A stretch of DNA of 21,252 nucleotides from a virus. The first letter of the stretch is position 1. Each line of letters begins with the position of its first letter. The DNA lies in the IMG/VR virus record IMGVR_UViG_3300025771_004295, positions 1 to 21,252 of that record. The stretch is one strand, 5' to 3'. A program made the translations under genes and the position numbers. This document shows positions 1,499 through 21,252 of this stretch, one piece after another. The notes under the pieces are model-generated. The model saw only the letters and a list, made by a program, of their open reading frames with translations. It made no database searches and was not told the DNA's origin.

Positions 1499-1508
1499 GG
1501 AGTAAACA

Positions 1509-4043: not shown

Positions 4044-4047
4044 TACT

Positions 4048-6738: not shown

Positions 6739-6742
6739 TATT

Positions 6743-8038
6743 ATGGCAACGAACTTTCCAAGCAGTCCCTCAAACGGAGCCACACATACATTTGGCGGTA
6801 CTGTATATACATATAATTCAACAAAAGGTGTGTGGAAGGCTGCTGCTGGAGAAGCTGTTACAATCTCAGATACTCCTCCGAGTAACCCCGGGGGTGGAGA
6901 TTTATGGTTTGATTCCAGTGTAGCAAAAACATATGTTTACTACAATGATGGATCTTCAAATCAATGGGTTCAAATGAATCCTTCGGGCGGCTCAGATGGT
7001 GCTGATGGTGCTGATGGTGCCGACGGAGCTGATGCTAGTATTACAACATATAGTGCAGTTTCTGATTTACCTACGAGTAATAATGTAATAGGAGATTTAG
7101 CTTACATTACTAGTACAGGACAATTTGCAATTGCAAAATCAACAACTGATTGGACTTTATTCAGCAAAGATGGTGCAACTGATTTGCCTTCTGTTACTGG
7201 AGGAGGAAGTTTAGGTACATATACATCAGGCGGCACTACATATAATTATGCAAAATTTACTGCTGATGGAAATTTTGTACTTAATTCATCTATAACTGCA
7301 GATATACTAATTATTGCAGGCGGTGGTGGAGGCGGAGGCACAGGAACAAACGGCGGTGGCGGAGGAGGAGCAGGAGGCCTTGTGTATGCTTCAAATCAAT
7401 CTCTTGCTGCAGGAACTTATTCTGCTATAGTAGGTGACGGAGGAGCAGTAGGATCGAATGGATCAAATTCTACATTTACCGGGCAAACTGATGCGATTGG
7501 TGGTGGTGCCGGTGGAGCTTATGGAACTGCAGGATCATCGGGCGGATCTGGAGGAGGTGGAGGTCGCGACGGATCTCCCTCAGCAGGTGGTGCAGGTACC
7601 GCTGGACAAGGAAATGCTGGCGGCCAAAGCGGAGGAACTGGTTGCTCTTCAGCAGGTGGTGGCGGAGGAGCAGGTGCCGTAGGCTCTAATGGTGGAACAG
7701 ACTGTGGTTCCTACACAGCGGGAATGAGCGATGGAGGTGTAGGAAGTTCTACATATTCTGATTGGCTTCAAGGAGCATCTGCAGGTGAAGAAGTAAATGG
7801 AACTTGGTACATTGCAGGGGGCGGAGGGGGTGCAATAGAAGCTAATGCATCTGCTGGTACATCTTCAGGAGGTTATGGCGGAGGAGGAAATGGCTCAAAC
7901 AATACAAATGGAGAACAAAACGCGACGAATGGACTTGCTAATACAGGAAGCGGCGGCGGTGGAGGCCAATTTCGAAGCAGTGTTCAAGCTGCAGCGGGTG
8001 CTGGAGGTTCTGGCATAATACTATTGAGGTGGACATAA
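6743..8038 (+). CDS. Tail fibre/adhesin paralogue 4 with long glycine-rich C-terminal domain
   Basis: 431 residues, ATG preceded by AAGGA seven bases upstream. It opens with the shared module (MATNFPSSPSNGATH, then VYTYNSTKGVW), followed by ISDTPPSNPGGGDLWFDSSV, which resembles gene 1, four Asp-Gly-Ala repeats (84-98), and a short domain ending near 150. From about 190 to 425 the protein is dominated by runs of glycine with Ala, Ser and Asn (for example IIAGGGGGGG) and ends GGSGIILLRWT. This gly-rich ending with a closing ILLRW strand is a recurring phage fibre-tip type. A polyglycine-II-like adhesin fold, as in the gp38 adhesin of Salmonella phage S16, is an analogy, not shown. Only two cysteines lie in this domain, 20 residues apart. 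No LamG or Ig-like domain is present, unlike genes 2, 3 and 5. Confidence 0.8.
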   Translation: MATNFPSSPSNGATHTFGGTVYTYNSTKGVWKAAAGEAVTISDTPPSNPGGGDLWFDSSVAKTYVYYNDGSSNQWVQMNPSGGSDGADGADGADGADASITTYSAVSDLPTSNNVIGDLAYITSTGQFAIAKSTTDWTLFSKDGATDLPSVTGGGSLGTYTSGGTTYNYAKFTADGNFVLNSSITADILIIAGGGGGGGTGTNGGGGGGAGGLVYASNQSLAAGTYSAIVGDGGAVGSNGSNSTFTGQTDAIGGGAGGAYGTAGSSGGSGGGGGRDGSPSAGGAGTAGQGNAGGQSGGTGCSSAGGGGGAGAVGSNGGTDCGSYTAGMSDGGVGSSTYSDWLQGASAGEEVNGTWYIAGGGGGAIEANASAGTSSGGYGGGGNGSNNTNGEQNATNGLANTGSGGGGGQFRSSVQAAAGAGGSGIILLRWT

Positions 8039-10536
8039 TGGCAATTAATTTTACAGACAGTCCCGCAGATGGAGCAACGCAAGTAATCAGCGGAAAAACT
8101 TACACATACAATAGTGCAAAAAATAAGTGGGATACTACAGCTACAGAAGTTGTAGGCCCCACAGCTAAAACTTATGCAACTGTAAACGATTTGCCTGGAA
8201 CTGCACTAACAGGAGATCAAGCATTTGTAAGCGGCACAAATCGTCTTTACATTTGGAATGGTTCCGGTTGGTATAATATTGCACTTGTAAATAGCACTCC
8301 CACTTGGACTACTCAGCCTGATTCTTCTTATATACTTGCAAGTGATGGCACCGCAACTACAATTACAATTGTGGCTACAGATCCAGAAGGATTGCCGATT
8401 ACTTATAGTATTGCAAGCGATACTTCAGGTAGTATCGCTACAGTTACTCAGAATGCAAATGTATTTACGATTACTCCTTCTACAAACGATGTGAATGCAG
8501 GAACATTCTCACTTACATTCCGTGCAAGTGATGGAGTCAATATTGCGACAGCAGTAAGCAGCTTTACTTTACAGTTTATTATTGAAAATAGTAACTATAC
8601 GACTGCACTTATCACTTCTGTAGGTACGAATAATCAAGTTAATAATAATTTTATAGATTCAAGTACCAACAGTCATACGATTACTGCTACTGGAAATGTA
8701 ACTCAAAGTACGTTTAGCCCTTATCGACACGGCGGGTATAGTTATTACTGGGATGGAAGTGGAACAGACTATTTTCAGATCCTATCTCCTACTGCTGCAT
8801 TAGATTTTGGTACTGGCGATTTTACTATAGAGATGTGGGTCTGGCTAAATGATTTATCATCTGGAATCATTCTTGCAGACCTTCGTCCTTCAGAAACAAA
8901 CGGAAACCAATACATTGGTGCATTTTCTATCGGAACAGATGGAAACTATCAAGTTGCAACTGGTAACGTGCAACGCATTGTAACAACTGGCGGTCCTATT
9001 ACAGCCCGTAGCTGGCACCACATTGCTTTACAAAGAAATAGCGGTACGTTAGAAGCATACGTAGACGGTTCTAGAAATGCTACAGCCTCGTTTACCCAGT
9101 CACTAGATGCAAATAGATGGAGTTTGTTTAAAAACTCCTTTGCAGGTGGTGGGGTTGCAGATGCTGGGGGAGGATACCTTAAAGATTATCGAGTAGTAAA
9201 AGGCACTGCTGTTTATAGTGGTGCTACGTATGATGTACCAACTGAGTCCCTAACTGCTATATCTGGTACATCACTCTTACTTTTCTCTAATAGACCTACT
9301 TTTACATATGACGCGGCCGACACAGAATCTATAACATGGACGAATGGAGAGTTGGCTCCTTTCTCTCCTTATAAATATGAAAGATATTCTGCTGCAGACA
9401 ATGGCGGGTCTTTAACAAATGATGGAACCGGAACAAATTATTTAAGTGTAACCTCTAGTGATTTTGAATTTGGAACCTCAGATGATTTTGTAATAGAAGC
9501 GTGGGTATATCCAACAGCAACTCCTAGTGGTGCAGCTCAAGTTGTTGATAATAGAGGCGCGGCAAATGGATTAAATTTAGCTTTTACCTCCTCTAATCAA
9601 TTCGCTAGTTATTCTGAGCCTCTCTCGTCGCAATTAACAGGAACAACAAAAACATTAAATCAATGGTATCATGTAGCTGTTGTTAGATATAACGGAACAA
9701 GAAAATTATTTGTAAATGGAGTATCGGAAGCAAGTGTATCAGATACAGGAGATTATAACTCAAATAGTCTTATTATTGCTAGCCGTTACTCTCAAGATCA
9801 ACAAGCATGGGCTGGAAACATCTCAGATCTCCGAATTATTCGAGGTACGATTCCTAGCGCATATCAAGGAACTTCTTTAACTATTCCTACTACACCATTA
9901 ACAGCTATCACTAATACTAAACTTCTTCTTAGTGGTACAAACGCAGGCATCATTGATAAGTCGCAGTCATTGCAAACATTAACACTCAGTGGTGATGTGA
10001 AGTCATCTACAACTCAGAGCAAGTACCTAACTTCGTCAATGTATTTTGATGGGACGGGTGATAGCATCTCTACCTCTGATAGTGCAGAGCTTGGAACTGG
10101 AGATTTTACTTTAGAGGCTTGGGTATACCCAACAACGTTAAATTCTAACGACACATTTATAGCAGAGCATTGGTCAGGCACTACCGCTGGATTTATTTTT
10201 AGGGCACACACGAACAACTATTTAAGTTTGTTCGACGGCACTACAAATCGGGCAAGCAGTACGGCAATTGTCACTAATCAATGGCAACACGTCGCGGCTA
10301 GTCGAGAAAACGGAACTTTAAAGTTGTTTATTGATGGAACGCAAGTTTTGAGCGTTGCTACTTCTAGTAGTTTAACCGGTCCCGGATCAGGAGAATCTGT
10401 AACTGTGGGGGCAATAACTACAAGCAGTGGGTTTGCTAATTACTTTACTGGTTATATATCAGATGCGCGCATCACCAAAGGCGTCGCTCGATACACAGCA
10501 AACTTCACACCACCCACAGCAGCGTTACAGGGATAA
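8038..10536 (+). CDS. Tail fibre/adhesin paralogue 5, Ig-like plus three LamG-like domains
   Basis: 832 residues from the ATG at 8038, whose A is also the last base of gene 4's TAA stop. GAGG lies eight bases upstream, and an in-frame GTG at 8029 would only add three residues before the conserved MAINFTDSPADG. Layout: N-terminal module (1-31), RLYIWNGSGWYNIAL (69-83), an Ig/cadherin-like domain (about 87-182) with DPEGLPITYSI, and LamG-like repeats near 232-400, 450-630 and 665-820. It lacks the GDLW module and the collagen-like linker of genes 1, 3 and 4. The C-terminal tail RYTANFTPPTAALQG matches genes 2 and 3. It ends with tandem TAA stops and runs straight into the hairpin terminator, so it is the last gene of its transcription unit. 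Likely role: virion adhesin, by homology with its neighbours. Confidence 0.82.
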   Translation: MAINFTDSPADGATQVISGKTYTYNSAKNKWDTTATEVVGPTAKTYATVNDLPGTALTGDQAFVSGTNRLYIWNGSGWYNIALVNSTPTWTTQPDSSYILASDGTATTITIVATDPEGLPITYSIASDTSGSIATVTQNANVFTITPSTNDVNAGTFSLTFRASDGVNIATAVSSFTLQFIIENSNYTTALITSVGTNNQVNNNFIDSSTNSHTITATGNVTQSTFSPYRHGGYSYYWDGSGTDYFQILSPTAALDFGTGDFTIEMWVWLNDLSSGIILADLRPSETNGNQYIGAFSIGTDGNYQVATGNVQRIVTTGGPITARSWHHIALQRNSGTLEAYVDGSRNATASFTQSLDANRWSLFKNSFAGGGVADAGGGYLKDYRVVKGTAVYSGATYDVPTESLTAISGTSLLLFSNRPTFTYDAADTESITWTNGELAPFSPYKYERYSAADNGGSLTNDGTGTNYLSVTSSDFEFGTSDDFVIEAWVYPTATPSGAAQVVDNRGAANGLNLAFTSSNQFASYSEPLSSQLTGTTKTLNQWYHVAVVRYNGTRKLFVNGVSEASVSDTGDYNSNSLIIASRYSQDQQAWAGNISDLRIIRGTIPSAYQGTSLTIPTTPLTAITNTKLLLSGTNAGIIDKSQSLQTLTLSGDVKSSTTQSKYLTSSMYFDGTGDSISTSDSAELGTGDFTLEAWVYPTTLNSNDTFIAEHWSGTTAGFIFRAHTNNYLSLFDGTTNRASSTAIVTNQWQHVAASRENGTLKLFIDGTQVLSVATSSSLTGPGSGESVTVGAITTSSGFANYFTGYISDARITKGVARYTANFTPPTAALQG
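10474..10533 (+). repeat. 60-bp gene-end cassette, copy 3 (gene 5)
   Basis: Third copy. Its last codons are CAGGGA, so a Shine-Dalgarno-like sequence remains, but no gene follows: tandem stops and the terminator hairpin come next. This looks like a leftover of the repeated gene-cassette organisation. Confidence 0.82.
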
Positions 10537-10538
10537 TA

Positions 10539-10563
10539 AAAAAGGGGCTTATTGCCCCTTTTT
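10539..10563. terminator. Bidirectional intrinsic terminator between convergent operons
   Basis: A perfect 10-bp stem, AAAAAGGGGC (10539-10548) with GCCCCTTTTT (10554-10563), and a five-base loop TTATT. Read on either strand it gives a GC-rich hairpin followed by a T-run. It sits right after gene 5 on the plus strand. On the minus strand the hairpin overlaps the end of the 84-aa gene, whose TAA stop falls in the loop and whose last codons (Lys-Gly-Gln) form one arm. Confidence 0.9.
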
Positions 10564-10803
10564 CATTTCTTCTTGAAGTGCGATACTAAATCCTTTTATA
10601 GCCATTTCAAGACGTTGAACTTTTAAATGTTCTTGTTCAAGTTGCTGTTGTAAGTCTTGAATTTGAGCCAAATATGTTATTGCTCTTTCAGATAAATTAT
10701 TTGGATCAACCCCTTCACTTTTTACTTTTGGCTGACGAGCTAAATTATCGGGGGACTCTTCCCACCCCTCTTCTGGGGCCAAGGGAATATCAATATCACT
10801 CAT
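10549..10803 (-). CDS. Small coiled-coil protein of unknown function (84 aa)
   Basis: Acidic N-terminal half (MSDIDIPLAPEEGWEESPDN) followed by a predicted amphipathic coiled coil from about residue 38 to 80 (ITYLAQIQDLQQQLEQEH, then RLEMAIKGFSIALQEEM). No enzyme motif, signal peptide or membrane segment is seen. The start is supported by AGGAGG nine bases upstream. It overlaps the end of the 88-aa gene by eight bases and is last in the minus-strand operon, with its stop in the terminator loop. Its C-terminal half lines up with the 88-aa neighbour (Y--Q-Q-L, then RLE----GF---L--E), so the two look like diverged tandem duplicates. Function unknown; a small oligomerising accessory protein is a guess from the coiled coil. 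Confidence 0.8.
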   Translation of the reverse strand: MSDIDIPLAPEEGWEESPDNLARQPKVKSEGVDPNNLSERAITYLAQIQDLQQQLEQEHLKVQRLEMAIKGFSIALQEEMKKGQ

Positions 10804-11062
10804 CTTTAGCGGCCTCCTCTACATCAATCTCCGGTATGGGAGTTATTTCTTCGCTTTCTTTATTTATTTCAAGTCTTAACAAGTTAATAAACCCTTCTCT
10901 AGAAAGCTCCAGTCTGTGCGTGGCACTTTGAGAAGCGGTTATTTCCTTGTTCAGTGTTTGTAGTTGTCCTACATAATATTTTGCTAGATCGGGTAAATCT
11001 GCATAGATATACTCTTCTCCGTCAAAAGTTATTTTTGGACGATCTTCAATTTCTTCAGTCAT
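10796..11062 (-). CDS. Small coiled-coil protein, paralogue of the downstream gene (88 aa)
   Basis: Begins with a beta-like segment PKITFDGEEYIYADLPD, then a helical coiled-coil segment (about 29-68) and an acidic tail (EEITPIPEIDVEEAAKDE). The pattern of 'K-T-DG-EY--DLP' followed by a heptad-rich helix recalls small uncharacterised proteins common in cyanophage-type genomes; this match is from memory and tentative. AGGA lies seven bases before the ATG, overlapping the stop codon of nrdB, so translation probably follows nrdB directly. No catalytic residues are recognisable. Related to the 84-aa gene in its helix (HRLELSREGFINLLRLEI versus QRLEMAIKGFSIALQEEM). Confidence 0.8.
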   Translation of the reverse strand: MTEEIEDRPKITFDGEEYIYADLPDLAKYYVGQLQTLNKEITASQSATHRLELSREGFINLLRLEINKESEEITPIPEIDVEEAAKDE

Positions 11063-11071
11063 AATTTATTC

Positions 11072-12034
11072 CTATTTAAATATATCTTGCCAGTTTCCAG
11101 TAGTGCTCGCACGAGCATACTCTGTGGCACGGTTTTCAAAAAAGTTAGTATGCTCTACTCCATTCAACATATAGTCAAGCCAGGGTAAAGGATTATTTTC
11201 ACTTCCAAATATTTTCTTCATTCCAAGACCTAAAAGCCTACGGTCTGCAATGTATCGAATATATTCTTTTACTTCCTCTGGAGTCAAATCAGGTATAGAT
11301 GCTCCAGCAAAGCATAAATCAATAAAAGCATCTTCTAATTCTACAGTACGCTCTGCAGCACAATAAATCTCATACTTTAGATCATCGTTCCACAGCTCGG
11401 GATGCTCTTTTATGAATGTTCGAAACAATTGACTCATACCTTCTACATGAAGAGTTTCGTCACGAACTGACCAAGTTATAATTTGCCCCATACCTTTCAT
11501 AAGGTTATGTCTTGGAAAATTCAGTAGAATTGCAAAACTACTAAATAATTGTACTCCTTCTGTAAATCCAGAGTAAATTGCCATAGTTTTTGCAATATTC
11601 ATTGGACTGTCCATTCCAAAATTTGAAAGGTACTCGTGTTTATCCATCATTTCTTTATGCTCAAAAAACTTTTGGTATTCGTCGTCTCCAAAACCAAGAG
11701 TTTCAAGCAATAAAGAGTAAGCTTCTTGGTGCACCGCTTCCATTGCTGCAAAAGCAGATAGCATCATTCTTACTTCAGGCTGCTTAAATGTAGGCAGATA
11801 GTGTTTTGCATATCCACAGCAAACATCTACATCAGCCTGTGTAAAAAATCTAAAAATTTGATTAATAAGTCTGCGATTCTCAGGAGTTAGTTTATCCCTA
11901 TAGTCTCGAAGATCATCAGCAAGATTTACTTCGTCAGGAAGCCAGTGCATGTGCTGTTGTGTTTTATAATGTTCATAAGCCCACGGATAATTAAATGGCT
12001 TATAATATTCTCTTTCATGTAACAAATTACTCAT
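11072..12034 (-). CDS. nrdB: Class Ia ribonucleotide reductase beta subunit
   Basis: Supplies the tyrosyl radical for reduction of ribonucleoside diphosphates to deoxy forms, working with the NrdA encoded just upstream. 320 residues, somewhat shorter than E. coli NrdB (376). Diiron ligands can be assigned as D68, E99, H102, E159, E193 and H196, and the radical tyrosine as Y106, in the MEAVHQEAY helix; RDETLHVEG carries the last two ligands. All key residues are present, so the protein should be active. I chose the ATG at 12034 because GAGGG lies five bases upstream and it is one base from the nrdA stop; a GTG at 12046 is also in frame but would overlap nrdA and lacks a ribosome site. The conserved C-terminal residues end WQDIFK. 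Cytoplasmic; provides dNTPs for phage replication. Confidence 0.96.
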   Translation of the reverse strand: MSNLLHEREYYKPFNYPWAYEHYKTQQHMHWLPDEVNLADDLRDYRDKLTPENRRLINQIFRFFTQADVDVCCGYAKHYLPTFKQPEVRMMLSAFAAMEAVHQEAYSLLLETLGFGDDEYQKFFEHKEMMDKHEYLSNFGMDSPMNIAKTMAIYSGFTEGVQLFSSFAILLNFPRHNLMKGMGQIITWSVRDETLHVEGMSQLFRTFIKEHPELWNDDLKYEIYCAAERTVELEDAFIDLCFAGASIPDLTPEEVKEYIRYIADRRLLGLGMKKIFGSENNPLPWLDYMLNGVEHTNFFENRATEYARASTTGNWQDIFK

Positions 12035-12035
12035 A

Positions 12036-13817
12036 TTAACCCTCACACGCTAAACACGCGCCTTCGTCAATGCTATCAAAAATGTACTGACGTAATGCTT
12101 CATCAGATACTTTTTCTGCTCGCTTGTACGCTTCACTTCTTAAATAATATAAAGTTTTTACTTTCTTTTTCCATGCCATCATATGAATAGCATGAAGTTC
12201 TTGCTTTGATACATTTGCAGGAAAAAATACATTTAAAGATTGACTTTGACAGATATATTGTTGTCGATCGGCTGCAAGATCGATAACCCATCTTTGGTCA
12301 ATTTCCACTGCAGTTTTAAAGACGTCTTTTGTCCAATCATCAAGAAAGTCAAGATGTTGAACCGAACCGCCGTTTGTAATAATTCCTTTCCATACTTCAT
12401 CTGTATCTTCTCCTAACTCTTGAAGAATGTGCTCTAGATATTCATTTTTTTGTAAGCTGGATCCTGATTTAGTTTTTTGAGTAAACGCATTAGCGCGATA
12501 AGGCTCGATACTTGGACTAGTATTACCGCAAATAATGGAACTACTAGCATTAGGAGCAACAGCGAGCAAATGAACGTTCCGAACTCCATAACCAACTGCA
12601 TCAGGTGCTTCACCCCTTTCAATAGCCAATTCACGAGTTGCACGATCCGCCTCCGATTTTATGTGCTTAAACATTCTCATGTTTGCACTCTTTGCCATTA
12701 TACCTTCAAATGGTTGATTGTGTCTTTGCAAGTAGGCATGAAATCCCATTGCACCTAGTCCAATACTTCTTTCTTGCATAGCACTATGTGCAGCTCTCCA
12801 TAGCTCTCGAGGTGCGTTATCAATAAAGTAAGTCAATACATTATCAAGCATTCCAATTAGATCAGGAATAAAAAGAGGATTATGCTGCCATTCATCAAAC
12901 TCTTCCAGATTTACACTTGACAAGCAGCATACTGCTGTTCTATCTTCTGCTGTAGCAAGTGTAATCTCACTACAAAGATTTGAATGATGTACTTTTAGTC
13001 CTTTCTCTTTTTGACAATCAGGCAAGGCATCTTGTACGGTATCCCCAAACATAATGTAAGGTTCTCCGGTTTCTACACGATTTTGAATAAGTTTTACCCA
13101 AAGTGTTTTTGCAGACACAGTTTTTACAATACGACCCGTATGAGGATCACGAAGATCCCAGCTATCGTCAAATCCTTCCTCTCTTGTAGCCCCTTCTATA
13201 AGGGCCATAAATCTATCTGGTACCACCACTCCATGATGTAGATTAGTAGACTTGCGGTTAATATCGCCTCCAGTGGGTTTTCGAACATCTAAAAATTCCT
13301 CTATTTCAGGGTGGGACATATCGAGATATGCTGCATAGCTACCTCGTCGAGTGACGCCTTGACTAAATGCAAGCATTTCGGCATCAACAACTTTCATAAA
13401 CGGAATAACTCCAGTACTCTCGGAGCCATTGCTCGTTTTCGAGCCTACACTCCGAACCCCGTTCCAACATCCTCCGACACCTCCGCCAACACTACTTAAA
13501 AAAGCATTCTCGGTGTAATGATTTGTGATGCCTTCGCGACTGTCCTCTACATAGTTTAGGAAACAACTAATTGGCAATCCTCGAGTAGTCCCTCCATTTG
13601 AAAGAACCGGGGTACTAAACATAAACCAAAGTTTACTAGCATAGTCATATAGTCTCTGAGCATGAGCTTCATCATTAGCAAATGCTTTTGCAGCACGCGC
13701 GAAAGCATCTTGAGGTGATAACTCACCATCAATCATGTATCTATCTGATAAAGTTTTTTTACTAAATTCAGAAAGATACGCGTCTCGCGCATAATCAACT
13801 TTTATATTATAACTCAC
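12036..13817 (-). CDS. nrdA: Class Ia ribonucleotide reductase alpha subunit without ATP-cone
   Basis: Catalytic subunit that reduces ribonucleotides. 593 residues against 761 in E. coli. The protein begins directly in the helical domain before STPVLSNGGTTRGLPISCF, so the N-terminal ATP-cone that senses ATP/dATP is missing. Active-site elements are present: C85 and C297 (redox pair), N280, C282 and E284 in NLCSEI, the APNASSSIICGNTSPSIEP loop (421-439), Y557-Y558 for radical transfer, and the C-terminal C588/C591 pair (CLAC) that passes electrons from thioredoxin or glutaredoxin. The start is GTG, with GGGAG eight bases upstream, and it overlaps the exonuclease gene by 11 bases. nrdB follows one base after its stop. 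Confidence 0.96.
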   Translation of the reverse strand: MSYNIKVDYARDAYLSEFSKKTLSDRYMIDGELSPQDAFARAAKAFANDEAHAQRLYDYASKLWFMFSTPVLSNGGTTRGLPISCFLNYVEDSREGITNHYTENAFLSSVGGGVGGCWNGVRSVGSKTSNGSESTGVIPFMKVVDAEMLAFSQGVTRRGSYAAYLDMSHPEIEEFLDVRKPTGGDINRKSTNLHHGVVVPDRFMALIEGATREEGFDDSWDLRDPHTGRIVKTVSAKTLWVKLIQNRVETGEPYIMFGDTVQDALPDCQKEKGLKVHHSNLCSEITLATAEDRTAVCCLSSVNLEEFDEWQHNPLFIPDLIGMLDNVLTYFIDNAPRELWRAAHSAMQERSIGLGAMGFHAYLQRHNQPFEGIMAKSANMRMFKHIKSEADRATRELAIERGEAPDAVGYGVRNVHLLAVAPNASSSIICGNTSPSIEPYRANAFTQKTKSGSSLQKNEYLEHILQELGEDTDEVWKGIITNGGSVQHLDFLDDWTKDVFKTAVEIDQRWVIDLAADRQQYICQSQSLNVFFPANVSKQELHAIHMMAWKKKVKTLYYLRSEAYKRAEKVSDEALRQYIFDSIDEGACLACEG

Positions 13818-14640
13818 CCAACATTCTCCCTCGAATATCTTCTAAGTAATTTTTACCTAGAGCATCATCACAGTATGTGATTAAATCCATTAATTCATAG
13901 TTTCTTAATATTTGATCTGGATTTTCATTAAGTCCTTGAATAAATTTATATCTACTATTTATAGGAATTGCTTCATATATATCATAAGCACTTCCATACT
14001 CTTTTACCAAGCTTACAGCTCTTTTTGGTCCGATACCTGGAAACCCTTCAACATTATCGCCCTTGTCTCCCATTAAACATTTTACGGAGATATATTCTTC
14101 CGGCGTACAGTCGTAGTGTGTATCCCAGTTTTCTAGCGTAACTTCCTTCCTCGTTACATAAGAAAATCTACTAACATCTTCTTTTATTAGTAGGTCCCAG
14201 TCTCGGTCACTTGAGATTAGCCAAATAGATCCTAAATTATACTTTTCTTTGTATTTTACAAGGTGGGCTGCAATATCATCTGCCTCCACTCCTTGATATC
14301 GAAGCACCATGTAATTTTCTGCGGCTACTTCTAGACTTGCTTCATACTCTTCAAAAAACTCTTCAAAAGCAATCTTTTCTTCTTCTGTTTGCTCTGCAAA
14401 CTTATCTTTTCGATTTTGCTTATACTTATCGCTTATAATTTTTCTATAAGAAGAGGAGCCCCAATCTGATGCAACTATAATACGACTACATGAGTAAGAT
14501 ACTGCTAAACTTTGTATTGTTCTATCAAAGTCATATCGAAAGTCTGTTCTTCCTTGGTGCTTCCATCTAAAAGCTAAGTTCAGGGCGTCTACAATTAGCG
14601 TTGAGTTTGACTCAAGCTTTTCATTGAAACTGAATCCCAT
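13807..14640 (-). CDS. 5'-3' exonuclease / flap endonuclease (RNase H-like phage family)
   Basis: 277 residues with the PIN-like FEN fold: LIVDALNLAFR (D18), GVEADDIAAHLV (E119, D121, D122), ISSDRDWDLL (D145, D147) and GDKGDNVEGFPGIGPKRA (D192, D195), the last running into the helix-three-turn-helix DNA-binding segment. These acidic residues bind the two metal ions in T4 RNase H, T5 D15 and the N-terminal domain of bacterial Pol I. Expected role: removing RNA primers and 5' flaps from Okazaki fragments. The visible polymerase C-terminus is encoded some 6 kb away, so this is a separate gene. The ATG is preceded by GGAG ten bases away, and the gene overlaps the resolvase-like gene by 20 bases and nrdA by 11. 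Confidence 0.93.
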   Translation of the reverse strand: MGFSFNEKLESNSTLIVDALNLAFRWKHQGRTDFRYDFDRTIQSLAVSYSCSRIIVASDWGSSSYRKIISDKYKQNRKDKFAEQTEEEKIAFEEFFEEYEASLEVAAENYMVLRYQGVEADDIAAHLVKYKEKYNLGSIWLISSDRDWDLLIKEDVSRFSYVTRKEVTLENWDTHYDCTPEEYISVKCLMGDKGDNVEGFPGIGPKRAVSLVKEYGSAYDIYEAIPINSRYKFIQGLNENPDQILRNYELMDLITYCDDALGKNYLEDIRGRMLGEL

Positions 14641-15079
14641 TTTTTAAAAACTCCACTGTTTCTGATTCTAGCCAAACTTCAGCAAGAAGAACAAAACAAT
14701 TTAAAAACTGTATGTATATCCAATCTTCTGTTTGCTTTGGCTGTAAATGTGTGACTACAAATACGGGCGAACGATTATATTTAAAAAATAAAAGAGGTTC
14801 TTGGTCTCCTCCTTCCGCTTGTACTTGTATTTTTTTCCACCATCTTATAAGATTATTTGTTTTTTTCGCGGTAAATATTTTATCTGAAAGGGGCGAATCA
14901 GAGTAGTTTTTTACTTCAATACAAAAACGATTTTTTTCATTTGGAACATACAAATCGCCTTTTAAATACTCTAATGCTCCCGACGCAGGAACTCGTTCAA
15001 ACTGTAATCCAGTTGCAGTTCTTAGCATATCTCGTACTAAATATTCTCCCCGCGCTCCTTTTGCTCTACTGTCGACCAT
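14621..15079 (-). CDS. Hjc-like Holliday junction resolvase (PD-(D/E)XK nuclease)
   Basis: 152 residues from the ATG at 15079 (a TTG two codons upstream is also possible). The early part fits archaeal Hjc-type resolvases: AKGARGEYLVRDML with E12, VPASGALEYLKGDLYV with S33 and D42, and FCIEVKNY with the E55-x-K57 catalytic pair. These residues make up the PD-(D/E)XK metal site. The remainder is an alpha/beta stretch with many aromatics. Family role: cutting four-way junctions. Its position beside the Mre11/Rad50-type pair and the flap nuclease supports branch resolution or debranching before packaging. A more general phage-encoded PD-(D/E)XK endonuclease remains possible, since specificity cannot be read from the motif. 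Confidence 0.82.
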   Translation of the reverse strand: MVDSRAKGARGEYLVRDMLRTATGLQFERVPASGALEYLKGDLYVPNEKNRFCIEVKNYSDSPLSDKIFTAKKTNNLIRWWKKIQVQAEGGDQEPLLFFKYNRSPVFVVTHLQPKQTEDWIYIQFLNCFVLLAEVWLESETVEFLKNGIQFQ

Positions 15080-15275
15080 TGTCAAGTTCTTCTAGTGCTT
15101 GAAACTTCTCTTGAGCTTCTGCTAATTTGGATATCTGGGTATCAATTGCGTCGATTATTTCGGGGTGCTCTCCAATACCAACTGGGTTTTCCAGATATAT
15201 CTCTATATTTGCCCGGGCTTCCTCGATCTGACCGAAGTACTTCGCCTTCAGGGCTGAAATTATTGCTTTCTTCAT
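15066..15275 (-). CDS. Small helical protein of unknown function (69 aa)
   Basis: MKKAIISALKAKYFGQIEEA, then IEIYLENPVGIGEHPEIIDA and a closing helix up to LEELDNGRQ. I recall similar small proteins with the YLENPVGIGEH motif in many phage genomes, usually annotated as hypothetical; that is memory, not a search. It appears to be three helices with a conserved turn at NPVGIGEHP and no catalytic signature. The ATG is preceded by purine-rich AAGAAGAAG. The stop lies inside the start region of the resolvase-like gene, a 14-base overlap. Two out-of-frame open frames over the same DNA (15095-15343 plus, 15142-15354 minus) are shadows. Confidence 0.8.
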   Translation of the reverse strand: MKKAIISALKAKYFGQIEEARANIEIYLENPVGIGEHPEIIDAIDTQISKLAEAQEKFQALEELDNGRQ

Positions 15276-15323
15276 TTTCTTCTTCTTGTAAACTCCATTG
15301 TCTGCGCTGTGATAGTTGTCTAT
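15276..15323 (-). other. Short untranslated gap between Rad50-like gene and 69-aa gene
   Basis: The longest intergenic gap in the window (48 bases). It contains a nine-codon frame (ATG GAG TTT ..., ending TGA over the next ATG) with no Shine-Dalgarno; I see no promoter, hairpin or RNA gene. Confidence 0.5.
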
Positions 15324-17120
15324 TTAGTACTCTAGTTTGCTGACGTTGTCGCACTTAATTACCTCGATTTTTTCAAGCAGTGGGTGACTCCACCCGTGAC
15401 TCACAATATAAGTATTTAACTCTTCCTTGAGTAACACTTCTACCATTTTTTCTCGACCGTTTTCATCAAGAACATTTATTACTTCGTCTAAAAATAATAC
15501 ATTGATTCTTGACTTTGATATACTACTCATAAGTTTGCGTATTGCAATTAGAGTAGCTGTGTTTACTCTTGCGAGTTCTCCGCTGGAGAGTGCAAGAATA
15601 TCTACAATATTTCCATTGTCGGTTACTTGAACATTTAGCTTATCATTTGTAACAACAAACTCTAGCGTAAATCTTCCGTCAGAAAGTTCCGCTAGGTAAT
15701 AATTTGCAAGCTCTTCTAATTCTTTTACAAGATTTTCTATCTTGTATGCAAGAAGGCCGTTTGTACTAAAAGACTTTTTTAACAGCTCTAAATTCGATGA
15801 AAGAACAGAAATTTCTTTTAATTCGTTTGTTGCTTTCTCTAGCTGCGATAAGAATTCTTCTGTTTGTTCTTGAATTACTTGGATTCGGGTGTTGTGTCTT
15901 GTTCTTCTTTCATTTTCTTTCGCTGCATCTGCCACTTCGCTTTTTCTTCGGCCCAAGTCATCTCGTACTCTAGCCAAGCGCTCTTCCAGCTCGTTTTTGT
16001 CCAGTAAGGCCACTGGGAGATCTCGGTCAATGCTTCTGTAAATTTCTTCCCACTCCCTTTCGATAGAACGGGCTCGATCGTACTCTGCATTGTCTCGTTT
16101 AATTTCTGTAATTCTTCTGGCAATTTCATCTTGTCTTTCCCTTGCTTCTGAAATTTTTCTTGATTCTGCTACAATTAGACTTTCTTTAAACTCAGGGTCA
16201 ACATCTTGCTCGCACGTGGGGCAGTGATCTCCTAGCTTATTCAACTTATCTAGAAGTTTCTTAGACCCCGCTACGACCCCGCTGAGAGTCCCAGATTCTG
16301 TTTGTAGATCATCATATGATACTTTGTTAGTAATTTTACAGTTTTGTGCTTCTGCTAAATTTATGGATTTCAACAGTTCGATGTACTGATTATTTTTAGA
16401 AATTTTTTTATTTTTTTCGGAAATATTTTCAATTTCTTTTGATAAAAATCGGAATTCTTTCTCTTCTTTTTCCGTGTCAATTTCTATATTTAACATGGGA
16501 AGTACATTCGTATCACTCAATTTGTTATCTTGCAACCATTTTTCAATCGTTTTTACCTGACTGTCAATACTATTAATTTGAAGAGACACATCCCTGGAAG
16601 CAGCCTTAAATATCTCAAACAGTTCTACATATTTTTCAAGAGCTAATAGCTCAATTAAAAACTTTTTACGGTTAGTATCTGTAGCTGTAAGAAATTGTAG
16701 ACTAGCGTTTGTATTTTGATAAACCAATTGAGAAAATGTTTTAAAGTCTATTCCAATAACTTCTTGAATCGACTTATAGGTATTTGTAGCCGTATGGCTA
16801 GAAATATCTTCTCCATTTTTTTCAAACTTTATCTTGATGTTTGACTTTCTGTTTACAGTAATTTTGTATACATCGTCGTCTTTTGTAAAATTCAATACGA
16901 TATCATAACCGTTATTTAAATAACGGTTAGGGATGTCTGCTTTTTTAATTCCTTTTGAATTTTTGTTGTAAAGTGCTTCTTCAATAATAAGAGGAATGGA
17001 CGACTTGCCCATTCCATTAGTTCCAAGAATTTGTGTTACTGTTTGCCCGTCCAGGTCTATTTCATTATTGGGCCCATAACTGAAGCAGTTATTCCATTGT
17101 AACTTTTGAAGCGTAATCAT
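15324..17120 (-). CDS. Rad50/SbcC-like recombination ATPase (T4 gp46 type)
   Basis: 598 residues, close to T4 gp46 (560) and far shorter than bacterial SbcC. It has every SMC-like ABC element: Walker A GTNGMGKSS (33-41), Q-loop around FSQLVYQ (129-135), a central coiled coil from about 170 to 440 broken by a zinc hook CPTC (300-303), signature LSSGE (511-515), Walker B VLFLDE (541-546) and the H-loop histidine at 575. It partners the Mre11-like nuclease encoded just upstream, and the two genes overlap by 32 bases. Expected role: ATP-driven control of DNA end resection for recombination-dependent replication or host DNA degradation. The ATG has AGGA at suitable spacing. The zinc hook suggests dimer bridging of DNA ends. 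Confidence 0.95.
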   Translation of the reverse strand: MITLQKLQWNNCFSYGPNNEIDLDGQTVTQILGTNGMGKSSIPLIIEEALYNKNSKGIKKADIPNRYLNNGYDIVLNFTKDDDVYKITVNRKSNIKIKFEKNGEDISSHTATNTYKSIQEVIGIDFKTFSQLVYQNTNASLQFLTATDTNRKKFLIELLALEKYVELFEIFKAASRDVSLQINSIDSQVKTIEKWLQDNKLSDTNVLPMLNIEIDTEKEEKEFRFLSKEIENISEKNKKISKNNQYIELLKSINLAEAQNCKITNKVSYDDLQTESGTLSGVVAGSKKLLDKLNKLGDHCPTCEQDVDPEFKESLIVAESRKISEARERQDEIARRITEIKRDNAEYDRARSIEREWEEIYRSIDRDLPVALLDKNELEERLARVRDDLGRRKSEVADAAKENERRTRHNTRIQVIQEQTEEFLSQLEKATNELKEISVLSSNLELLKKSFSTNGLLAYKIENLVKELEELANYYLAELSDGRFTLEFVVTNDKLNVQVTDNGNIVDILALSSGELARVNTATLIAIRKLMSSISKSRINVLFLDEVINVLDENGREKMVEVLLKEELNTYIVSHGWSHPLLEKIEVIKCDNVSKLEY

Positions 17121-18048
17121 TAAAAGTTCCTATAATTTCTGGTATCTTTGCTTCTTCTATCTCTAGTACAAATTGTAAGTATTCACTTAATTCTTCTTGT
17201 ACTGTCATTTCTTTTTCTAGTAAGAGAGTTGCTTCGGTACTTCGTCTTACTACTTTTTTATCCAATAGCTCTGAGTTTTTTACCTCTGCTAAATCCTGTA
17301 TATCTCCCTCTATTTCGTAGATTGTATGATCGTAGTCAGTAGGAACCATTTCTTCTTCACTTTGTACGGTTTTACGTATCAATTGTGGAAGGTCAAAAGG
17401 CTCCCATATCCAAGACCAGTCCTCTTCATTTATAAGTAAGTATCCTGTAGATACTCTACTTCTATGAAAAGAAGTCGTCATTGGACTCCCGGGGTATACA
17501 ATATTTCGTTGGGTATTACTGTGTGCGTGTAGGTCGCCTGCAAAGACAACTGGAAAATCCTCTAGCAAGTCTAAGTCCAGCTCTGGCTTGACATGAGGAG
17601 GAATTTCTCCACGAACATGAGTAAACAACGGATAGTGCTTAGGAAAATGATCTATAATATCTTTCTTATGTAGTTCTGCATACGGTAAAATACTAAAGCC
17701 CGTATCATTATCTATATATGAAATATCTATTACCTGTACTAAAGGATTTACTTCTCTACTCACTTCTTTTAACTGAGTAAAAAAAGTTTTATTTTTCTTT
17801 GTAGCTTCATGGTTTCCATCATAAATTACTGTTGGAACCTTAACATTTTTTATAAAAGAAAAATAAAGTTCTAATTCTTCTAAAGAAGGAGAGCGATCAA
17901 AAAGATCGCCCCCAATAATATGCATATTGCACATTTTTTCCAGACTGTGAATCTGTTCAAAAAAACTATTGTAACGATTTATAGCCCAAGAAACTGGGAC
18001 ATTTTTTTGTCCCAGTTTGATGTGCCAGTCTGCTGTAAAAAGAATCAT
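17089..18048 (-). CDS. Mre11/SbcD-like nuclease (T4 gp47 type)
   Basis: 319 residues, near T4 gp47 (339). Calcineurin-like metallophosphoesterase motifs appear in order: D7-x-H9 in TADWHI, GGDLFDRS (D48), YDGNHE (N79, H80), FTHVRGE (H144) and FAGDLHAHS (D172, H174, H176). These ligate the two manganese ions in Mre11/SbcD. The C-terminal third is helical (about 280-319) and probably docks on the coiled-coil base of the Rad50-like partner. Start and preceding ssb stop share ATGA, so translation is likely coupled to the abundant ssb message. Function: nuclease of the end-processing complex, creating 3' single strands for recombination. Confidence 0.95.
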   Translation of the reverse strand: MILFTADWHIKLGQKNVPVSWAINRYNSFFEQIHSLEKMCNMHIIGGDLFDRSPSLEELELYFSFIKNVKVPTVIYDGNHEATKKNKTFFTQLKEVSREVNPLVQVIDISYIDNDTGFSILPYAELHKKDIIDHFPKHYPLFTHVRGEIPPHVKPELDLDLLEDFPVVFAGDLHAHSNTQRNIVYPGSPMTTSFHRSRVSTGYLLINEEDWSWIWEPFDLPQLIRKTVQSEEEMVPTDYDHTIYEIEGDIQDLAEVKNSELLDKKVVRRSTEATLLLEKEMTVQEELSEYLQFVLEIEEAKIPEIIGTFNDYASKVTME

Positions 18049-18680
18049 GCAATATTAAACTCATTCTCTAGTGCTTCTTCATCGACATTAGTTGAATCAC
18101 TAACGCCTTCTCGTACTCTATCGAGTAGCTCTTTTTGTGCGTCTGGAGTCGGACGGGGCATAACATCATCCATAGACTTCAGATCAACAATAAGTGCTCG
18201 TTCATCTTCGTCAAGAGGACGAGACTTACACTTGAGTACCTGTACTTGGTACTCTACATTGTAAGGCAGAGGGCCAGTCTTTACTCGCTTGAATTTAACA
18301 TCCCAGCCAGTTTCTGGATCAGTAGGATCTCCTAGATCTTCTGCAGCAGTCATAATCTGCTCGAACAGCTTCTTCTTGAGATTGAAAACTTTCAGTTCTC
18401 CATTATGCAGACACTGCATTGCGTAGCTCCAGCCACACTTCAGATCTGGATAATATTCACGAACCCAATCTTTTTCCTTGTTGTTGAAACGCTCTTCATC
18501 TCTATCAAAAGAAAGACATTCGAGAGGAATGTTCTTACCATTCTCTCCTTCGATCCAGTAAACGTAACGTGCCAATACGTCGCCTACAAGGCGAACATTA
18601 TTGTCGCCGTCCTGTGGAACAAAAGTGTTGATAGAACTTTTTTGAGCTGCGCCCTTTGCTTTGTTAAATGTAATTGCCAT
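18045..18680 (-). CDS. Single-stranded DNA-binding protein (gp32-like role)
   Basis: 211 residues. The core NNVRLVGDVLARYVYWIEG, LKCGWSYAMQC, GELKVFNLKKKLFEQIM and DLGDPTDPETGWDVKFKRVKTG matches the pattern of phage ssDNA-binding proteins that I recognise from annotated genomes. An acidic C-terminal tail (NVDEEALENEF) fits an SSB that recruits partners through its tail. It is shorter than T4 gp32 (301), and C55, C82, C90 and H92 are candidates for a zinc site, unproven. GGAG lies eight bases before the ATG, and the start overlaps the upstream stop as TAATG. It is the second gene after a near-consensus promoter, consistent with strong expression. Role: coating template and lagging strands and presenting substrate to the polymerase, helicase and nucleases encoded nearby. 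Confidence 0.85.
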   Translation of the reverse strand: MAITFNKAKGAAQKSSINTFVPQDGDNNVRLVGDVLARYVYWIEGENGKNIPLECLSFDRDEERFNNKEKDWVREYYPDLKCGWSYAMQCLHNGELKVFNLKKKLFEQIMTAAEDLGDPTDPETGWDVKFKRVKTGPLPYNVEYQVQVLKCKSRPLDEDERALIVDLKSMDDVMPRPTPDAQKELLDRVREGVSDSTNVDEEALENEFNIA

Positions 18681-19087
18681 TAATGTATCTCCTGTTTTGA
18701 GGGACTTCTTTCGTATAAAAAATGAACTTGTCCATTTTCTATCTCCAGTAGCCTATTTTCATATATGTGTGGTAGTGTTTCTGCCGGTAAATGTAATAAA
18801 TCTAAAGTTATTTTATGAGAAGCATAGAAATCAGGAAGAGGCCTAAGAGCAGCAATACCTGTATATACAGCCATTTCTCGAAAAGTAAATTTATATCCAT
18901 TATATAACAGTCTTTCAGGATGTACTAAAAAACTTGTACCGTCAAAATTCATTTGTGAGTAAAAATACTCTTTTTCATATTTGTTCTTTGGTATTCTTTT
19001 TTCAACCAACATTCTAAGGATCCTTACTATGTCAGTAGGATCTCCCGCTGCGGTATTATATATTTTTTTCCAATCGAACAATAACAT
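18680..19087 (-). CDS. Unknown protein (135 aa) between helicase and ssb
   Basis: No family I can name. It begins MLLFDWKKIYNTAAGDPTDI and contains FDGTSFLVHPERLLYNGYKF and FREMAVYTGIAALRPLPDFY. It appears to be a soluble mixed alpha/beta protein with many aromatics and no membrane segment or metal motif. Lying between helicase and ssb suggests a replication or recombination accessory role, as inference only. The annotated ATG has no Shine-Dalgarno and directly abuts a promoter -10 box, so a transcript from that promoter would lack this start. ATG codon 26 (MLVEKRIPK) has AAGGA eight bases upstream and could give a 110-residue form. The full-length form would need the read-through message from the helicase side. 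Confidence 0.7.
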   Translation of the reverse strand: MLLFDWKKIYNTAAGDPTDIVRILRMLVEKRIPKNKYEKEYFYSQMNFDGTSFLVHPERLLYNGYKFTFREMAVYTGIAALRPLPDFYASHKITLDLLHLPAETLPHIYENRLLEIENGQVHFLYERSPSKQEIH

Positions 19088-19116
19088 ATTATACTAAAAT
19101 CTGAGGTAAAAGTCAA
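19088..19116 (-). promoter_or_regulatory. Near-consensus sigma70-type promoter, reading leftward
   Basis: On the minus strand: TTGACT (-35, at 19111-19116), a 17-base spacer, and TATAAT (-10, at 19088-19093). This is the best promoter I found in the window. It occupies most of the 40-base gap after the helicase gene start-to-end run and points at the 135-aa gene, ssb, Mre11-like and downstream genes. The expected start site near 19081 falls inside codon 3 of the 135-aa gene, just past its ATG. Confidence 0.82.
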
Positions 19117-19127
19117 GAACTATTTTT

Positions 19128-20411
19128 CTATACTTGATTGATTCGCCAACCTTGTTTTATGTAGTATCCCATTCTATTTGACGCCTGCTTGCGAGCAGTG
19201 TTTCCTTTTAAATGAATATCTACAATTACAGGTGTTTGTTTTCCTTCCCGTTCTCGTATAACTCTTCCGATAAGTTGTGTGAGGAGAGGTTCGTTGTTGA
19301 TAGGGGTACCGAGTATAAGGACAGATAAGGCATTAACCGAAATACCTTCACTAAATATTGCTTGAGTACCGAATAAAATATTTTTATTGCCATAGTTTAT
19401 CTGATTTAAAAGATCCTCTCGTTCTTCATGAGGAACCTCTCCCGTAACGCAGATAGCTTTTTCTCCGGCTAAAAGCGCACAATTTTTTAAAAATTGCACT
19501 CGGTCTGACACAACTAAAACTTTGTGTCCCTTTGCCGCATAAAAAGCTGCCAACATTGCAACTGTGTGGATGTACTCTTCGTTGTTCGCTAGATTCGTTA
19601 CTCGATTCGCCCACGGTATTCTAGCTCCATCCATAAATCTTATTTCAGATTTTATAATATCTACAACTGGGGTCATGAAATTTTCTTTTGGCGGCTTAAA
19701 TATTTTCTGGCCAAAATAATCTCGAAATACTACATGTTTTCCATCTTTTCTTTCAATTGTCCCGCTGAGACCAATTTTGTATCTTGCGTGATTTGTGTCG
19801 ATGATTTTGGAAAATGTTGGCGAAGATACATGGTGCATTTCGTCCAAGATAATTGTTCCAAACATTTTTCGAACTCGATCGATGTTTCTGTAGAGTGTTT
19901 GGGTATTACCAACCACAATACAAGAATCGGTGTTAAAAGAACCAGAACCAATAATTCCTGGAGTGATTCCATAGACTTTTTCTACCTCCTTTGCCCATTG
20001 ATTTCTCAAGGGTACTGTGTGTGTTATTACTAATGTCTTTTGCCCTAATTTTCCTGCTATCGCCAACCCCGTGAAAGTCTTTCCCCAACTTACCCACGCA
20101 TTGATGATACTATTATCGGAGAGCTCGTCGTAAACGGCTTGTTGAGATTCGCGAAGTACGTACTGAAAAGAAGGAAAATTAGCAGGAACCATAATCCTCT
20201 TGTCAATAATTTCATATTCATCTGGTATTAAATCCGTTCTTCCAATTGGTATGCTTACTAAGTTCTCCCTAACTCTTGCCATATTTTTTATAACAAGAGG
20301 AGGGTCTTTGGGATTAGGAGCAGGAACTTTATAGGTCAGTTCTTTACTAAGATGCTCCTTATACTCTGGAGTAACTTCCAAAAGTATTCTATTACTTATG
20401 ACTGCTTTCAT
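19128..20411 (-). CDS. SF2 DNA helicase, UvsW/DEAD-like
   Basis: 427 residues from the ATG at 20411, chosen because it overlaps the upstream stop as ATGA; an in-frame GTG at 20438 has no good ribosome site. Helicase motifs in order: Q-type residue near SQQ (89-91), Walker A-like VSWGKT (107-112), DEMHH Walker B (190-194), LSGT (215-218) and QLIGRVIRER (379-388) with arginine fingers. The first 80 residues form a short N-terminal domain (MKAVISNRILLEVTPEY). T4 UvsW, an SF2 enzyme of 503 residues, unwinds branched DNA and helps move replication from origin to recombination mode; a similar role is inferred. Walker A deviates from A-x-x-G-x-G-K-T because Ser and Trp occupy the usual Gly-x positions. 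It probably acts on R-loops, forks or junctions together with the resolvase. Confidence 0.92.
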   Translation of the reverse strand: MKAVISNRILLEVTPEYKEHLSKELTYKVPAPNPKDPPLVIKNMARVRENLVSIPIGRTDLIPDEYEIIDKRIMVPANFPSFQYVLRESQQAVYDELSDNSIINAWVSWGKTFTGLAIAGKLGQKTLVITHTVPLRNQWAKEVEKVYGITPGIIGSGSFNTDSCIVVGNTQTLYRNIDRVRKMFGTIILDEMHHVSSPTFSKIIDTNHARYKIGLSGTIERKDGKHVVFRDYFGQKIFKPPKENFMTPVVDIIKSEIRFMDGARIPWANRVTNLANNEEYIHTVAMLAAFYAAKGHKVLVVSDRVQFLKNCALLAGEKAICVTGEVPHEEREDLLNQINYGNKNILFGTQAIFSEGISVNALSVLILGTPINNEPLLTQLIGRVIREREGKQTPVIVDIHLKGNTARKQASNRMGYYIKQGWRINQV

Positions 20412-20902
20412 ACTTTCTTTCGCTTGTTCTTTAAACACTCAGTAGAATAGTCGTATAAAAGCCACGGCATATTATACATTAATAGAACTCCTGCCCATGT
20501 ACAATCAGGGTCAGGAGGTCGAGGAATAATAAAAGATTGTTTTACACCATACAAGTGCAGTAGAGAAGCTACTTCTTTTCTAGTTACTTCTTTAATTCTG
20601 TAATATTGTATGGGGCACATTTTAGTTTTTTCATATATAAAAACTTTGCCATTTGAATCAATAAAATGTTTATCCCGGGATTTAATTAGTCCTAGGTGAC
20701 TATTTAAAGATTTTTTTAAAACAAATAAGTTTTCATGTGGCGTTTGAAGTCTGCGCTTACCAAGACTGTCTCCTTCCATGTTCTTATCATCAAGAATGTA
20801 CTCGTCTAGAAAAAGCAGCCCATCTAAGAGCTGCCAGTTTCCGTTTGGTAAGTTAAATACAGGAAAATTAATTCTATCTATATTTCTGTATGTTATTATC
20901 AC
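20408..20902 (-). CDS. Conserved-looking phage protein of unknown function (164 aa)
   Basis: Starts with GTG, overlapping the polymerase stop as GTGA, and ends in ATGA with the helicase gene, so it is tightly coupled to both. Sequence features: MIITYRNIDRINFPVFNLPN, LLDGLLFLDEYILDD, GDSLGKRRLQTPHENLFVL and a C-terminal WLLYDYSTECLKNKRKKV with a basic end. I recall similar hypothetical proteins next to phage replication genes, but cannot name a family. The KRRLQTP and SRDKHFIDSNGKVFIYEKT stretches look like the most conserved parts. No nuclease, helicase or zinc motif is recognisable. Its position between polymerase and helicase suggests a replisome accessory protein, which is inference. Confidence 0.8.
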   Translation of the reverse strand: MIITYRNIDRINFPVFNLPNGNWQLLDGLLFLDEYILDDKNMEGDSLGKRRLQTPHENLFVLKKSLNSHLGLIKSRDKHFIDSNGKVFIYEKTKMCPIQYYRIKEVTRKEVASLLHLYGVKQSFIIPRPPDPDCTWAGVLLMYNMPWLLYDYSTECLKNKRKKV

Positions 20903-21252
20903 AAATATTGTTTTTCAAACTTGCCCATAGAGTAGTCATCACCAATCTCAAAGTCACATCCAATTGGTGCTCCAGGTATAAAAATACCTCTATCCATCTG
21001 AACAAGCTCTCGTAGTTTGTTGCAATAGGTATCAATTTCTTCCTCGGGTACTTCGGCAAGAATTGAGTCGTGAACAAGAGCAAAAATTCTTGACTTTAGT
21101 TTCTCGCTTTTTATAAATGCGTTCATATCTATAGCACCTAAGAGGTTAATATCAGAAGCAGCAGACTGCACCAAAAAATTAAGACCACTCCTAATGCTAT
21201 GAGATTTGATACCTTTGTCTTCTGAAGCGACATTTGGCAATCTCCTTTTACG
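20899..21252 (-). CDS. polA: Family A DNA polymerase, C-terminal end only
   Basis: 117 residues are visible; the gene continues beyond base 21252. The visible part covers the end of the palm: RKRRLPN, the NFLVQSAASDI helix (25-35; the family pattern is N-x-x-x-Q-x-x-A-x-D), and motif C, FALVHDSILAEVP, where the D of HDS (62) holds a catalytic metal. The ending GCDFEIGDDYSMGKFEKQYL fits phage and bacterial Pol I family enzymes. It is probably the replicative polymerase of the phage, given its neighbours. A TTG at 21240 preceded by AAGGAG resembles a start but lies inside the conserved polymerase sequence, and the frame runs on to the edge. Stop and next start share GTGA. Confidence 0.93.
   Translation of the reverse strand, partial: RKRRLPNVASEDKGIKSHSIRSGLNFLVQSAASDINLLGAIDMNAFIKSEKLKSRIFALVHDSILAEVPEEEIDTYCNKLRELVQMDRGIFIPGAPIGCDFEIGDDYSMGKFEKQYL

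Follow-up and report, generated by a model that had tools for sequence, protein, structure and literature searches.

What a promoter can serve when it ends at the base preceding a start codon is the question raised by the window studied here, a stretch of 21,252 nucleotides of viral DNA (IMG/VR record IMGVR_UViG_3300025771_004295). On the minus strand, positions 19116-19088 read TTGACT, a 17-nt spacer and TATAAT, and the next base opens the ATG (19087-19085) of a gene encoding a protein of 135 amino acids. The 40 nt lying between the stop codon of the upstream helicase gene (19130-19128) and the ATG at 19087 consist of AAAAATAGTTC, TTGACT, the 17 nt and TATAAT. With hexamers near consensus (11/12) and 17 nt between them, the site belongs to the sigma-70 type, whose spacing is 16-18 nt, and it is the best and the sole 11/12 match among the 56 promoter-like matches found in a scan of positions 1500-21252. 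As these are no more numerous than in shuffled sequences (mean 53.8, sd 7.5), a single match is weak evidence, and it is conservation that carries the case.

The surrounding genes (Table 1) correspond, by their PHROG matches and their order, to the D10/T5.125/D11 locus of the T5 group. Homologous genes in the same order are annotated in Pectobacterium phage DU_PP_V and were seen in Vibrio phage VPG01, both Demerecviridae, the latter with an extra small gene after the helicase, and the annotation note of Escherichia phage HdH2 names the homologue of the 135-aa protein T5.125. In the window the ATG of ssb and the stop codon of the 135-aa gene share one base, and a Shine-Dalgarno (SD) sequence, AGGAG, precedes this ATG at 18693-18689 of the minus strand. 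Elsewhere in the window, between 1509 and 10536, several long open reading frames have common repeated stretches (variants of FVDSSTNSHTIT...FSPYRHGGYS) and apparently encode paralogous tail-fibre-like proteins.

Table 1. Features of the focal promoter and of the genes around it (positions in the window)
Feature	Positions	Strand	Basis
A-tract element AAAAATAGTTC, 5' of the -35 hexamer	19117..19127	-	near-invariant in 130 contexts; weaker, visible consensus in 75 other promoters
-35 hexamer TTGACT	19111..19116	-	sequence and scan; TTGACA in 119/130 relatives
-10 hexamer TATAAT, abutting the ATG	19088..19093	-	sequence, scan, conservation
Predicted RNA start, 6-9 nt past -10, within codons 2-3	19079..19082	-	sigma-70 geometry, and leaderless-type genes of relatives with a gap of 5-8 nt
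AAGGA (19025-19021) and ATG codon 26 (19012-19010), candidate internal start	19010..19025	-	judged not functional
DNA helicase, T5 D10-like, upstream gene	19128..20438	-	ORF; PHROG 16, E 4.6e-66; same order in DU_PP_V and VPG01
135-aa gene, T5.125 homologue, start codon 19087-19085	18680..19087	-	PHROG 4258, E 3.5e-17, residues 1-127
ssb, T5 D11-like, probably served by the promoter	18045..18680	-	PHROG 1607, single strand DNA binding protein, E 9.6e-31
SbcD-like nuclease subunit, T5 D12 position, downstream gene	17089..18048	-	PHROG 100, E 4.5e-37
Gene in T5 D13 position, downstream	15324..17120	-	ORF and DU_PP_V gene order

Conservation of the promoter and its counterparts in relatives

Relatives were gathered by searches of viral contigs with the 135-aa protein, with its alignments and with ssb, which yielded 131 distinct start contexts of an uncultured clade, a term denoting contigs from a virus-contig collection and nothing more, and 27 of the T5 group. 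Loci whose homology match started after residue 12 or whose start lay less than 70 nt from an edge were excluded, and identical 100-nt contexts were merged. Two of the protein-anchored searches had N-terminal motifs among their patterns, which favours conserved N-termini; hence the ssb-anchored search, free from that bias, constitutes the fairer test.

A promoter matching the consensus at 11 or more of 12 positions was present in all 131 clade contexts, in sets built partly from the best 80 of 501, the best 80 of 555 (both protein-anchored) and the best 80 of 575 (ssb-anchored) relatives. The distance from the end of the -10 hexamer to the start codon was 0 nt in 37 contexts, 1 nt in 13, 2 nt in 79 and 3 nt in one, and in the remaining context (L159) the start codon overlaps the hexamer by 2 nt; the codon itself is ATG in 127, TTG in three and GTG in one. 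Among the best 80 of 575 relatives of the ssb-anchored set, eight were too short upstream to be counted, and the 72 loci that extend 480 nt or more upstream all have the promoter, at a gap of -2 to 2 nt, in 40 distinct contexts. Both results led us to reject a chance promoter. Promoter and abutment are thus conserved together, and the preliminary description, which had reported TTGACT-17-TATAAT followed at once by ATG, was right in coordinates and spacing and had understated the case.

In the 130 contexts with a 17-nt spacer, 10 of the 12 hexamer positions are invariant; the other two are the last base of the -35 hexamer (A in 119) and the fifth of the -10 hexamer (A in 127). The A-tract 5' of the -35 hardly varies, and spacer positions carry 0.02-1.48 bits. 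Changes of the gap were followed on a tree that covers 151 distinct proteins over 135 columns and has 148 inner branches, 22 of them open: the 125 clade rows require at least 12 changes, none of which leads above 3 nt, and some of the switches between 0 and 2 nt may come from slippage in an AT repeat. Over all rows of the tree, leadered and abutting arrangements need four changes.

Other promoters of the relatives served as calibration. The exact pattern TTGACN-17-TATAAT has 113 matches in nine relative contigs, some of them near-copies with promoters common to several, versus one match for the reversed pattern. Six contigs carry 85 of the 113 matches, and 81 of the 85 lie within the regions examined; four of these are focal, and two of the 77 others were set aside as duplicate or near an edge, leaving 75. 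Scored by ATG and SD alone, the frame not being part of the criterion, 43 of the 75 are leadered, with an ATG 16-47 nt downstream behind an SD. Another 15 have an ATG 5-8 nt past the -10, no SD and a frame of at least 40 codons, which is the look expected of leaderless RNA if transcription begins 6-9 nt past the -10; the remaining 17 were left unclassified. Such apparently leaderless phage genes occur in L203, L206, L215, L217, L224-L230, L235, L243, L246 and L251. An ATG at a gap of 0 or 2 nt is present in 14 of the 75, each time with a further start codon downstream, SD-led in 12 and at 5-8 nt only in two. Three of these abutting ATGs open long frames (62, 106 and 163 codons) and may be in use.

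RNAs and proteins expected from the locus

At sigma-70 promoters the RNA starts 6-9 nt past the -10 box. By this geometry, RNA polymerase at the focal site, which we read as a promoter inside an operon and of the consensus sigma-70 type of the phage, would begin its RNA in codons 2-3 of the 135-aa gene, and this promoter RNA would be devoid of the AUG. It would carry ssb, with its own strong SD, and the genes behind ssb; accumulation of SSB and of the later proteins would be raised, and that of the 135-aa protein would not. The full-length 135-aa protein would be made only from longer read-through RNA arriving from the helicase side, which, initiated at upstream promoters, would give some SSB and a little of the 135-aa protein, little relative to SSB because this RNA has no SD before the 135-aa ATG. 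We infer the transcript starts from geometry, and the RNA classes and protein amounts with them; to the reading as a whole, that is, a promoter whose RNA starts past the AUG and serves ssb and its followers while the 135-aa protein depends on read-through, we assign a probability of about 0.65.

Several observations are consistent with that assignment. Most spacer positions diverge among the 130 contexts while the hexamers are constant. The duplex with the anti-SD sequence is worth +0.4 kcal/mol before the 135-aa ATG, which has no SD, versus -7.4 before ssb, although the missing SD is not special, since neither the helicase gene nor the window's 164-aa gene has a good one. In a 101-kb relative the next exact forward promoter after the focal one is reached at 93.4 kb. 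The suggestion, made in the preliminary description, that the promoter is dedicated to ssb and downstream genes agrees with these energies, with the position of that next promoter and with the conservation of both promoter and N-terminus.

The conservation of the N-terminus is at the protein level: over 57 disjoint pairs, codons 2-25 have a dN/dS of 0.143 and codons 26-130 one of 0.200, which argues that the N-terminus is translated. The comparison of relatives proposed in the preliminary description, run here for promoter and N-terminus, found both to be kept. An AlphaFold2 model built from 31 sequences, with row L292 excluded from the alignment, has a mean pLDDT of 91.3 and a pTM of 0.85, and places a strand at residues 2-4 and helices at 6-12 and 17-29, all with high confidence; in this model the first 25 codons are part of the predicted fold. 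With the selection on the N-terminus, the model makes it very probable that the full-length 135-aa protein is produced. What the protein resembles was sought by several routes: a Foldseek search of the PDB with the model gave no match at E <= 0.001, a Pfam search gave nothing above the cut-offs, and the two matches in BFVD are one unnamed and one uncharacterised phage protein. No study of a T5.125-type small protein was found among open-access papers.

A different account of the abutment leaves these RNAs unchanged, as it concerns why the arrangement exists and not what it does. The space between the helicase and 135-aa genes may have been trimmed to the bare promoter during compaction, the exclusion of the AUG being a by-product without benefit and the geometry not an object of selection. 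The helicase side is equally tight, 10 or 11 nt separating the stop codon from the -35 in 110 of 127 contexts, and genes here overlap or abut, an example being ssb and the 135-aa gene, which have one base in common in 72 of 131 contexts. On the other hand, the gap has changed at least 12 times without ever reaching 4 nt in the clade, though leaderless-type starts at 5-8 nt exist in the same phages. We regard compaction as quite possible, if short of probable.

The 135-aa gene could instead be expressed from the focal promoter as a leaderless gene, if the RNA began at the A of its ATG despite the spacing of 0-3 nt. Leaderless translation seems available, for 15 of the 75 calibration promoters look leaderless; these, however, have gaps of 5-8 nt, whereas at the focal site the window has no gap at all and the 131 contexts range from -2 to 3, and the 14 other ATGs at 0 or 2 nt are all accompanied by another start. 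An RNA start 1-4 nt past the -10 is not known for sigma-70 polymerases. Expression of this kind is hence unlikely. A leaderless start at the predicted 5' end was considered as well, codon 3 of the window being TTG (19081-19079), and was rejected, as the codon is TTA in L007-L010 and L011.

Still less probable, and in our estimation very much so, is the isoform switch that the preliminary description had offered, in which the promoter RNA yields a shorter protein from ATG codon 26. The AAGGA it had pointed out eight bases upstream of that codon is indeed present in the window, methionine is kept at this column in 92 of 95 distinct relatives, and a parallel is known in Shigella virF, which is reported to have an internal promoter together with a short form that is leaderless (PMC5101355). 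The start signal, in contrast, is not conserved, AAGGA being found in five and AGGA in nine of the 95 rows, and a protein begun at codon 26 would be deprived of the strand at 2-4, the helix at 6-12 and most of the helix at 17-29, breaking the confidently modelled fold; we therefore reject the codon-26 start.

That the sequence only resembles a promoter, as the equal frequency of matches in the window and in shuffles (56 vs 53.8) might suggest, is barely conceivable in view of the near-invariant hexamers, spacing and A-tract beside a largely diverging spacer, and of the 113 exact motifs versus one reversed control in nine contigs, near-copies included.

Promoter-to-start distance in the T5 group and in known systems

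The T5-group (Demerecviridae) promoter between D10 and T5.125 resembles that of the window in its place, in the genes around it and in having a TATAAT promoter in the same gap, and differs from it in distance: 23 of the 27 distinct contexts have 18-35 nt between the -10 and the start, frequently with an SD, so that the promoter RNA there would include the start region. This difference speaks against the reading in which the promoter excludes the AUG. The exceptions are Yersinia phage phiR2-01 and Enterobacter phage KKP_3711, which read TATAAT-A-TTG (2/27), and two contexts with gaps of 4 (L289) and 11 nt (L296). In five of the 27 contexts an ATT stands at the place expected for the start codon; these and the two with an abutting TTG count in favour of that reading. 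The conserved T5.125 N-terminus seems to begin at an ATT behind GAGGAG in HdH2 (Tequintavirus), for which the annotated start of the homologue is an internal ATG lying 78 nt further on, and in 20 of the loci L263-L311, 49 in number. In Tequintavirus-type phages this apparent start stands at 392 in L258 and at 1201 in L269-L288. These sequences suggest that weak initiation of the T5.125-type protein came about in several ways.

In several T5-group phages two tandem TATAAT promoters, with a short hairpin-like stretch between them, lie between the helicase and T5.125 (L255 252-400, L258 237-391, L259 279-400). For phiLLS, T5.125 is listed with a 220-nt space before the helicase (PMC5519627). A transcript map of the D10/T5.125/D11 locus of the T5 group, or an account of an arrangement such as the present one, was not found among open-access papers.

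Three known systems share features with the focal promoter. In T4 gene e the distance from promoter to start signal decides, without a regulator, which RNA is translatable; there, however, it is the promoter RNA that can be translated, and a hairpin blocks the long RNA, whereas here the promoter RNA, lacking the AUG, would be silent for the small protein (PMC3014915). Single-sequence folds of the window, the corresponding hairpin test on one sequence, gave weak pairing around the 135-aa ATG. In Shigella virF the promoter is likewise in or at the gene and its RNA lacks the first start codon, but virF yields a second protein, for which there is no support here (PMC5101355). In E. coli the serS promoter overlaps the neighbouring gene rarA, a downstream gene being served from within its neighbour as proposed for ssb; the focal promoter differs in lying exactly at the start codon, a position kept in all 131 contexts of one clade (PMC9012371).

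The relatives also contain what appears as the mirror image. About 5.5 kb upstream, a promoter sits within a hairpin: the spacer of the promoter provides its 5' arm, and its 3' arm, after which a run of T follows, includes the SD of the next gene. Folding energies of the read-through RNA are -17.8 to -24.4 kcal/mol in eight of nine loci (-8.7 in L254), and those of the promoter RNA -3.0 to 0. Promoters nested in terminator-like hairpins of this kind, upstream of the window's end, occur in L016 (from 524), L019 (from 517), L022 (from 532), L026, L027, L144, L155 and L211. By these folds the hairpin would block the read-through RNA and spare the promoter RNA, making its gene usable on promoter RNA only, an arrangement that resembles T4 gene e (PMC3014915).

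Taking the two promoters together, we put forward tentatively, as a possibility that falls below even odds, that a promoter excluding the AUG has been selected across the clade and, separately, in a few T5-group phages whose -10 lies within about 3 nt of the start, so as to boost ssb and not the small protein, and that genes are sorted to RNA classes by promoter-to-start distance alone. The small protein, apparently weakly initiated by several routes, may be one whose dose matters. In T5-group phages the T5.125-type protein has the replication SSB as its neighbour, and the AUG-skipping reading is directly testable in those of them that grow on laboratory E. coli. If true, it would mean that the neighbours of an operon can be uncoupled without a regulator, by a promoter placed so near a start codon that its RNA omits that codon.
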